From positions 124,001-188,000 of the forward strand of contig CACLBJ010000001.1 in NCBI GenBank assembly GCA_902605165.1: a DNA stretch of 64,000 nt. Reading direction: 5' to 3'. The notes under the pieces were generated by a model. That model was not told the DNA's origin and searched no databases. It saw only the letters and a program-made list of their open reading frames with translations. The stretch's first letter is position 1. Every line of letters begins with the position of its first letter. This document shows positions 39,974 through 41,756 of the stretch, piece by piece. The DNA comes from an uncultured SAR86 cluster bacterium (GTDB lineage: Bacteria > Pseudomonadota > Gammaproteobacteria > Magnimaribacterales > D2472). Made by a program: the position numbers and the translations under genes.

Positions 39974-40124
39974 AAATTCTTGTAACATTTCTGAAAATAT
40001 TGCCTTTAATATTAATATGTCTCTTGCTTAGTTATTTCATTAAAGTAAACTTTACTTAGCATTTTAATTTGCACCATTTCCATGGTTTAAAAGGAACTCA
40101 ATTTTTTGAGTGAAGAGTTAAAAT
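39974..40124 (+). other. upstream part of the glutamine synthetase leader
   Basis: No gene is found here. The stretch holds a perfect palindrome, AAGTAAA-C-TTTACTT, at 40043-40057 that could bind a dimeric regulator. A small hairpin follows at 40096-40111 (ACTCAA, four T, TTGAGT) just before the first riboswitch. AT-rich promoter-like bases abound, but I see no -35/-10 pair good enough to call. The transcript must start before 40125 for both aptamers to be included. Confidence 0.5.
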
Positions 40125-40172
40125 CGTTCAACTTCTTAGGAAGTCGGAAGTAGGTGAAAACCGAAGGAACGC
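40125..40172 (+). ncRNA. glutamine riboswitch (glnA RNA class), aptamer 1
   Basis: The sequence fits the glnA RNA aptamer known from cyanobacteria and marine metagenomes. The outer stem pairs CGTTC (40125-40129) with GAACG (40167-40171). Hairpin P2 pairs ACTTC with GAAGT around a TTAG loop. The conserved core CGGAAGTAGG and then CCGAAGGAACGC follow. This class binds L-glutamine. It is the first of two copies upstream of the glutamine synthetase gene. Confidence 0.92.
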
Positions 40173-40196
40173 ACCCGTTAACAGGATAACGTTAAT

Positions 40197-40243
40197 CGTT
40201 CAACTCTTTTAGAGTCGGAAGTAAGCGAAAGCTGAAGGAACGC
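40197..40243 (+). ncRNA. glutamine riboswitch (glnA RNA class), aptamer 2
   Basis: A second complete copy starts 72 nt after the first. The outer stem pairs CGTTC (40197-40201) with GAACG (40238-40242). P2 pairs ACTCT with AGAGT. The core reads CGGAAGTAAGC, GAAA, GCTGAAGGAACGC, with the third helix AGC/GCT closed by a GAAA tetraloop. Bases differ from copy 1 mainly where pairing is kept by compensatory changes. Two aptamers in series can give a steeper or two-input response to glutamine. Confidence 0.92.
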
Positions 40244-40286
40244 AACCGTTAAACCCGATCGAGTTTAACTTCAAAAATCCTGCAGA

Positions 40287-40316
40287 CTAAAAAATGCATG
40301 AAAATTTATTTTTTAG
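40287..40316 (+). promoter_or_regulatory. hairpin overlapping the glutamine synthetase ribosome binding site
   Basis: CTAAAAAAT at 40287-40295 is perfectly complementary to ATTTTTTAG at 40308-40316, a 9-bp stem with a 12-nt loop. Its 3' arm ends on the first two bases of the AGGAGA Shine-Dalgarno (40315-40320), six bases before the ATG at 40326. It is not followed by a T run, so a role in translation rather than termination is suggested. It lies downstream of both aptamers and could be their expression platform. Confidence 0.5.
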
Positions 40317-40325
40317 GAGATATTT

Positions 40326-41297
40326 ATGAATACTTTTGAATATATATGGCTTGATGGGTATCAGCCGGAACCAATGATGCGAAGCAAAGTTAAAGCTACT
40401 GAGGATGATACTCCTCCAGATTGGTCTTTTGATGGGTCTTCAACTCAACAAGCTGAAGGCGGAAGTTCAGACTGCTTACTTTTACCAGTGCAGACCTATG
40501 CAAATCCAAATGGTCATGATTTAGTTATGACTCAAGTTCAAGCTGCTGACCATTCCGTGCATCCATCTAATACTAGAGCTGCAGCGGCAGAAGTGACTAC
40601 TGATGAGTGGTGGTTTGGATTTGAACAAGAATTCTTTTTTACTGATCCGCAAACTGGAGAACCTTTAGGTTGGGAAGATGGCACACCAAGAGAGCAAGGA
40701 GAATATTATTGTGGAGTTGGAGCAGGCAATGTAGTTGGTAGAGAAATCTCAGATGCGCATTTAGAAGCTTGTTTAGATCTTGGCATAACCCTTACGGGTA
40801 CAAATGCAGAGGTTGCTCTTGGTCAATGGGAGTATCAGTGTTTTGGAAAAGGTATCAAAGCAGCTGATGATCTTTGGGTATCAAGATATCTTCTTTATAA
40901 GATTGCTGAAGAATATGGTGTTGGTGTAAATATACATCCAAAGCCAAAAACAGGTGACTGGAACGGATCTGGAATGCATTGTAATTTTTCAAATGAAGCA
41001 ATGAGAACTGCTGGTTCTGAAGAACTTTTCTCTTCAATGTGTGACAAATTAGGCGAAGTTCATGAAGAAGGTATTGCATCTTATGGTTCGGATAATGATA
41101 TGAGACTAACAGGTCTTCATGAGACACAAAGCATCGAAAAATTCTCTTATGGTGTCAGTGATCGTGGAGCAAGTATAAGAATCCCTGTCTATACTGTTGA
41201 ACATGACTGGAATGGATATCTTGAAGACAGAAGACCAGCATCTAATGCTGATCCTTACAAGATACTAGCTCATATAGTAGGAACTCTTTCTAAATAA
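40326..41297 (+). CDS. glnII: glutamine synthetase type II (eukaryote-like GSII)
   Basis: A 323-residue GSII, far shorter than the roughly 470-residue bacterial GSI. Signatures are YIWLDGYQPEPMMRSKV, PPDWSFDGSSTQQAEGGSSD, FGFEQEFFFTD with the metal Glu residues, EVALGQWEYQC, DWNGSGMHCNFS and FSYGVSDRGASIRIP. It makes glutamine from glutamate, ammonia and ATP. The adenylylation loop of GSI is absent, so GlnE control is not expected; control by the tandem glutamine riboswitches in its leader is. It has a clear SD (AGGAGA) and a strong terminator just after the stop, so it forms a single-gene unit. Confidence 0.96.
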   Translation: MNTFEYIWLDGYQPEPMMRSKVKATEDDTPPDWSFDGSSTQQAEGGSSDCLLLPVQTYANPNGHDLVMTQVQAADHSVHPSNTRAAAAEVTTDEWWFGFEQEFFFTDPQTGEPLGWEDGTPREQGEYYCGVGAGNVVGREISDAHLEACLDLGITLTGTNAEVALGQWEYQCFGKGIKAADDLWVSRYLLYKIAEEYGVGVNIHPKPKTGDWNGSGMHCNFSNEAMRTAGSEELFSSMCDKLGEVHEEGIASYGSDNDMRLTGLHETQSIEKFSYGVSDRGASIRIPVYTVEHDWNGYLEDRRPASNADPYKILAHIVGTLSK

Positions 41298-41310
41298 ATT
41301 TGTTTCTTTT

Positions 41311-41341
41311 AAAAATGCGGGGATTCTTTTCCCGCATTTTT
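41311..41341. terminator. bidirectional Rho-independent terminator
   Basis: AAAAATGCGGG (41311-41321) pairs perfectly with CCCGCATTTTT (41331-41341) around a 9-nt loop. The A/T tails make it work in both directions. It ends glutamine synthetase on the plus strand and overlaps the stop codon of the convergent rhodanese gene. It is the strongest terminator I see in the window. Confidence 0.88.
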
Positions 41342-41756
41342 ATTTTTGGACAACTGGAAGGTTCTCTTGTGTCCAAGTCATCATACCTCCATTTAACCTA
41401 AAGGTTTTCTCAAACTCAGCTTTTTTAAGTTTCTCACCAATATTTGCAGAATTTCTTCCCATATCACAGACCAAGATTATTGGACGATCTTTGAATTTTT
41501 CTAATTCATGCATCTGATTATCAAATTCTTGATGAGGATAATTCAATGCATTCATAATATGTCCATTTTCATAATCTTCTTTTTTTCTAAGATCGATAAG
41601 GATTGCACTTTCTTTGTTGATTAATCGTGTAAGTTCATTGGGCTCAATTTTCTTACCGCCTTTGTTCATTTCTGAATAAGCAAATAAGAATATGAAGAAA
41701 AATAGTGGTACTGAGAAATACCAATAATCAATTAAAAAAAGATTAAATTCCAACAT
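41340..41756 (-). CDS. membrane-anchored rhodanese-like protein
   Basis: A 138-residue protein with one N-terminal transmembrane helix (about residues 11-27, [17 protein letters not shown]) and a single rhodanese domain. The domain shows [34 protein letters not shown] and the active loop [14 protein letters not shown] with the catalytic Cys. It resembles E. coli YibN. Such proteins may handle sulfane sulfur at the membrane; no substrate is known. It is alone, convergent with the glutamine synthetase gene and divergent from gpmA across 44 nt. Confidence 0.88.

Follow-up and report, generated by a model that had tools for sequence, protein, structure and literature searches.

How is glutamine synthetase (GS) controlled in a SAR86 bacterium that lacks the GlnD-PII-NtrBC-sigma54 cascade? 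The question arises at a locus where two RNAs stand in series ahead of a GS gene. The first-pass annotation, made from the letters of the DNA, took them for glnA-class aptamers upstream of a 323-residue GSII gene. We ran cmscan on the window, meaning the whole 64-kb stretch of DNA analysed here, and the features on which the question turns are as follows.

40123–40175, + strand: glutamine-I riboswitch aptamer 1 (RF01739; cmscan 71.4 bits, E 6.9e-14, model positions 1–53 of 53)
40195–40246, + strand: glutamine-I riboswitch aptamer 2 (RF01739; cmscan 68.4 bits, E 4.6e-13, model positions 1–53 of 53)
40326–41297, + strand: GSII glutamine synthetase, 323 aa (PDB and NCBIfam matches)

Both copies thus match the Rfam glnA RNA model over its whole length, far above its gathering score of 35, and the glnA-class identity claimed for them holds. 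So does their spacing of 72 nt, as the start-to-start distance. The originally proposed span, 40125–40243, misses the aptamer boundaries by no more than 3 nt; conservation in the leader extends further, over about 40059–40297. Besides these two aptamers, no riboswitch reached its gathering score anywhere in the 64 kb, and a relaxed covariance scan of the leader returned the same two, with everything else far below the cut-offs; the glutamine-II model RF01704 scored 14.6 and 14.2 bits against a gathering cut-off of 33. Stems P1, P2 and P3 and the conserved core (CGGAAGUA, GAAGGAACGC) are present in both aptamers in the RF01739 alignment, and all capital-letter core positions of the Rfam consensus are retained. 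The compensated differences between the copies, already pointed out in the first reading, are seen in P2 (ACUUC/GAAGU vs ACUCU/AGAGU) and P3 (GGU/ACC vs AGC/GCU). The best PDB match of the 323-codon ORF is 4bax (296 bits), GSII chains scoring 250–296 bits and GSI chains about 38, which bears out the GSII assignment; the NCBIfam GlnII match (NF041605) reaches 358 bits, under the model's equivalog cut-off of 500. By GSII identity the DNA belongs to the SAR86 cluster (the AG-893-L08 protein is identical), in agreement with the earlier guess of a likely marine gammaproteobacterium. The riboswitch pair is a sound feature of an already known kind, and we infer that its aptamers bind L-glutamine and control the GSII gene, which starts 80 nt from the end of the pair.

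Tandem glnA RNAs linked to GS, PII, GOGAT and Amt were described from marine sequences in 2010 (PMC2864571), and a 2022 count gave 157 doublets and four triplets of glutamine riboswitches (PMC9481103). A 2018 review restricted the class to cyanobacteria and its GS/Amt links to environmental samples (PMC6316151), a 2025 paper restricted glutamine riboswitches to Pseudomonadota (PMC12452182), and a marine methylophage has a predicted one (PMC9004378). With tandems and triplets already known, the pair itself is not new; its SAR86 setting is. The window's aptamers share the full-length match, the tandem form and the GS/Amt association with known glutamine-I riboswitches (RF01739), but they differ in occurring in SAR86, in a leader that combines them with a pseudoknot and a closing helix, and in belonging to a regulon of three units whose presence coincides with the loss of a protein cascade. 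As far as we checked, this regulon, its coincidence with cascade loss in two lineages (RpoN only in the second SAR86 family, f2) and the composite leader are undescribed. We found no paper in the open-access literature tying SAR86 to glutamine riboswitches or to sigma54/PII loss, which is not proof of novelty.

The transcription unit has the following elements.

40024–40051, + strand: putative sigma70-type promoter (−35-like TTGCTT 40024–40029, −10-like TAAACT 40046–40051; weak, found by eye)
40315–40319, + strand: Shine-Dalgarno AGGAG of the GSII gene, read from the sequence
41310–41342, + strand: intrinsic terminator 3′ of the GSII gene, 14-bp stem and T tail

Since the terminator directly follows the GSII gene, this is a single-gene unit; it is also the sole one found, a search for an intrinsic terminator inside the window leader having returned none. 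A consensus promoter scan did not list the putative promoter; TTGTTA/TTGCTT elements akin to it occur at the other aptamer arrays. A putative transcript start near 40058 would place GCAUUUU at the extreme 5′ end of the RNA.

The tandem pair ahead of GSII was correctly recognised in the first-pass annotation, but it is one of three arrays, and further conserved leader parts had been missed. The genome holds seven glutamine-I aptamers: two ahead of GSII, three in series (L008:5103-5278) ahead of porin-Amt (a porin of the TorF family plus an ammonium transporter of marine type), and two (L009:6346-6448, minus strand) ahead of a TonB-dependent receptor, whose substrate may be a nitrogen source. 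The same leader type precedes all three. Every genome of the genus (g1, 10/10) carries two to seven aptamers, in the same contexts wherever these were readable. The aptamer model also matches in 40 genomes of other genera of the family (f1), where the contexts read were 54-aa basic peptides, DUF4278-like and DUF4177-like proteins and an ATP-grasp operon, at an aptamer-to-start-codon spacing of mostly 17–47 nt (B-type). Among the contexts checked in RpoN-bearing genera, no aptamer preceded GS or Amt, and their short-platform loci look like the cyanobacterial arrangement. At L018, L019, L148, L149, L152 and other loci of these genera the aptamer leads the ATP-grasp operon or the 54-aa basic peptides; by analogy with IF17, the peptides are possible GS inhibitors.

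What sets the genus apart is not its enzyme. We rejected GSII as a peculiarity in itself, because it was the sole GS type found across the SAR86 family search, every GS match being GSII-like by score and length; the unusual part is therefore the missing GlnD-PII-NtrBC-sigma54 system, not GSII with a riboswitch. Gene absence rests on family-wide searches of 106 genomes in ten genera (10 genomes of g1, 96 of the others). RpoN and GlnD were each found in 0/10 genomes of the genus against 86/96 of the others (Fisher p 6e-9 each), PII in 1/10 (G008) against 93/96 (p 7e-10), and NtrC over the cut-off in 0/10 against 77/96 (p 6e-7). The genome of the window had neither PII nor RpoN in these searches, and its NtrC match was far below the cut-off. 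The g1 genomes are 78–93% complete; as three of them are at least 90% complete and equally small genera keep the genes, neither incompleteness nor size alone explains the absence. At the 48 aptamer-less SAR86 GSII loci, an NtrC-type activator gene lies within 2 kb downstream in 40, and a near-consensus sigma54 promoter, in a scan of the 150 nt upstream of GSII, lies 41–78 nt upstream in 21 (vs 12/4000 shuffles); in 19 the downstream NtrC gene comes without a strong sigma54 site, and eight lack both. The seven aptamer-led GSII loci carried neither a downstream NtrC-type gene nor a near-consensus sigma54 promoter. With the promoter missing at the genus's GSII loci, and PII, RpoN and an NtrC match over the cut-off lacking in this genome, the GSII gene of the window does not fit an NtrC/sigma54-controlled glnA.

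A class-level survey placed the aptamer in 4/369 gammaproteobacterial genomes, one of them from f2. Within f2, 20/21 genomes carry the aptamer and 0/21 carry RpoN, the one cascade component compared there. In the loci we examined, GS and porin-Amt carried aptamers in these two RpoN-less lineages only.

The RNA leaders and the protein cascade share their target genes (glnA/amt) and their signal (glutamine); the cascade is absent in g1, and in sister genera it is accompanied by an NtrC-type gene downstream of GSII. We consider it probable, on this genomic pattern, that RNA leaders which shut genes off in response to glutamine took the place of the GlnD-PII-NtrBC-sigma54 cascade, and that this SAR86 genus has an RNA-based nitrogen regulon of which the pair in the window is the GSII arm. 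The aptamers would then do the job that the cascade does in other SAR86. Streamlining could instead have removed the sigma54/PII cascade with no functional replacement, the riboswitch being an added or older, unrelated layer: all of the genomes are small (about 1 Mb), and streamlined marine bacteria commonly carry riboswitches (PMC9004378). That other SAR86 genera of 0.8–1.3 Mb keep RpoN, GlnD and PII, and that the GS and porin-Amt aptamers track the two RpoN-less lineages, makes this account unlikely. If replacement is the correct reading, an abundant group of ocean bacteria runs its central nitrogen decision by RNA, on each single mRNA, having lost a signalling cascade that is among the best known in bacteria. 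Replacement would also help to explain GS/Amt riboswitch associations known only from environmental DNA, with the sister genera serving as natural with/without pairs for studying the replacement of a protein network by riboswitches.

SAR11 offers a comparison. It reportedly has a PII-independent nitrogen response, in work ascribed to Smith and dated 2013. SAR11 and the genus studied here are both streamlined marine bacteria without PII control, but the SAR11 GSII loci examined had no glutamine aptamer upstream. SAR11 (loci L057-L117) and SAR86 GSII proteins are 88–91% identical, which suggests that these two groups, both abundant in the sea, have exchanged genes. We also considered and rejected a riboswitch that travels with a GSII type: close SAR11 and other SAR86 GSII genes lack the aptamer, and the riboswitched GSII genes do not form one clade.

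In which direction does the leader act? In bacteria, GS and ammonium uptake genes are raised when glutamine is scarce (NtrC-type logic). Given target genes of this kind and no protein system to raise them, the simplest reading is a leader that glutamine turns off; both the off direction and the regulatory output of the leader are inferred, from this, from terminator-like ends in f2 porin-Amt leaders and from the few leader folds in which the ribosome-binding site becomes less accessible. With glutamine plentiful, the aptamers would bind it and the leader would turn down GSII and the uptake genes; as glutamine falls, these genes would be expressed. Tandem copies would be expected to make the response steeper. 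The leader might conversely be an on-switch, in which expression of GSII, Amt and the TonB receptor rises with glutamine in the manner of cyanobacterial gifB. The tested type 1 and type 2 glutamine riboswitches activate expression, those of cyanobacteria turning genes on with glutamine (PMC6316151), and SAR86 itself has DUF4278-like genes under the same aptamer. We judge this rather improbable: it is normally at low glutamine that a cell needs GS and ammonium uptake, the A-type 3′ platform differs (about 70–150 nt vs the short B-type spacer of 17–47 nt), and the f2 porin-Amt leaders have terminator-like ends (GGUUUGACCCUUUUUUUU). The gifB riboswitch has the same aptamer class sensing nitrogen status but activates a GS inhibitor (IF17), whereas the SAR86 leader stands on GS itself, with another expression platform and, as we read it, an off output.

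How a glutamine-off leader might work depends on parts outside the RF01739 model. Three of these are conserved, namely a pseudoknot unit, a closing helix (Pc) and a hairpin (T); they are given here with the neighbouring elements.

40059–40073, + strand: 5′ strand of Pc (GCAUUUU 40059–40065, UUUGCA 40068–40073; several leader folds, co-varies with the 3′ strand)
40073–40096, + strand: H-type pseudoknot unit ACCAU-UUCC-AUGGU-UUAAAA-GGAA (covariation over 22 distinct units)
40097–40110, + strand: hairpin CUCAA-UUUU-UUGAG adjoining the pseudoknot (paired in unit-bearing g1 leaders; CCCAU/AUGGG in a relative)
40115–40122, + strand: 5′ strand of candidate helix P0, GAGUUAAA (7–8 of 8 pairs in all leaders compared)
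40177–40196, + strand: linker hairpin GUUAAC-AGGAUAAC-GUUAAU between the aptamers (read from the sequence; kept in the genus's GS leaders)
40248–40269, + strand: hairpin T, GUUAAAC 40248–40254 / GUUUAAC 40263–40269 (7/7 pairs in every A-type leader compared)
40281–40297, + strand: 3′ strand of Pc (UGCAGA 40281–40286, AAAAUGC 40291–40297; leader folds, covariation)

The pseudoknot has the general form NCCAU-(N)-CUCC-AUGGN-A-rich-GGAG. Over the 22 distinct units 94.9% of cells are paired, with compensatory changes at three of the four stem 2 pairs, and covariation is 0.266 against 0.111 ± 0.022 when shuffled (0/500) and at most 0.071 when slid; since the search pattern held CCAU/AUGG fixed, these values inform on stem 2 and, within stem 1, on the outer pair alone. 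In g1 genomes the unit core occurs exclusively at glutamine aptamers (16/16 sites), and the f2 porin-Amt leaders carry up to three units in series. We rejected a known RNA class for the pseudoknot, as no Rfam family matched the unit near a cut-off and viral contigs had no exact match to the pattern. The same 5′ ACCAU...AUGGU element could be read as a DNA operator for a repressor, with its palindromic CCATGG just downstream of the putative promoter. Stem 2 lies outside the palindrome arms, however, and co-varies (CUCC/GGAG, UUCC/GGAA, UAAC/GUUA, GUC/GAC), the A-rich loop has the right length for a pseudoknot, and units come in series of up to three, so that an operator seems very unlikely. Three pseudoknot units lie upstream of the aptamer at L187, L189, L193, L195 and L197, the middle one with stem 2 changed from CUCC/GGAG to UAAC/GUUA. 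At L129, the TonB-receptor leader of G006, the module is cleanly missing with both aptamers kept, a natural deletion.

Pc is a long-range helix that closes the 5′ end of the RNA onto the stretch ahead of the ribosome-binding site. Its own strands score 8–11 in most leaders, against 5.2–6.1 when strands are swapped between leader groups or shuffled; the low scorers are three TonB-receptor leaders with a score of only 6 and one f2 GS leader with 7. The sequence GCATTTTAATTTGCAC was considered as a sigma54 promoter and rejected because the spacing does not fit; a role as one strand of Pc explains it better. As far as could be checked in sequence comparisons, the pseudoknot and the closing helix appear undescribed, and as putative new RNA structures they are open to testing.

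P0 lies 5′ of the first aptamer and T lies 3′ of the last, and the two compete for the strand 40264–40271. Both are retained in nearly all leaders, but through one-sided changes only, those in T preserving pairing via G-U, so covariation cannot separate P0 from T, nor say which forms when. In the least certain step of the proposed mechanism, the strand GAGUUUAACUUC would pair with GAGUUAAA (P0) in the glutamine-free state or with GUUAAAC (T) in the glutamine-bound state. P0 would support Pc; with Pc weakened, its A-rich 3′ strand could pair with the ribosome-binding region, and translation would drop. In folds with P1 forced, accessibility of the ribosome-binding site was lower in a few leaders and unchanged in most; no A-type leader gained accessibility, and Pc persisted in several bound folds. 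Thermodynamic folding was set aside as a means of settling the switch, as it mostly gave no difference in accessibility, and we accordingly put forward the coupling of aptamer state to the ribosome-binding region as a hypothesis. A broader proposal, that two SAR86 lineages moved nitrogen control to a cis-acting RNA regulon in which the ~25-nt pseudoknot is a new element, perhaps a second sensor (e.g. of 2-oxoglutarate) integrated with glutamine sensing, strikes us as a long shot.

In f2 the leader precedes porin-Amt and GS, the latter being GSI in two genomes (L180:3667-5070, minus strand, TIGR00653 638 bits; and L188) and GSII in the rest of those seen. The GSII tree groups one g1 gene with f2 genes and one f2 gene with aptamer-less genes; this splitting of the riboswitched genes indicates that leader and enzyme were reshuffled, the leader having outlived enzyme exchange. 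The 5′ sequence GCAUUUUUAU of the f2 GSI leader is repeated at its ribosome-binding site, and this second copy could compete for the A-rich Pc strand. Another small gammaproteobacterium (G392) has single aptamers ahead of gltB and gltD (L182, L183). Each is followed by a CCAAACU/AGUUUGG hairpin, the 3′ arm of which could also pair downstream with CAUCAAACU.
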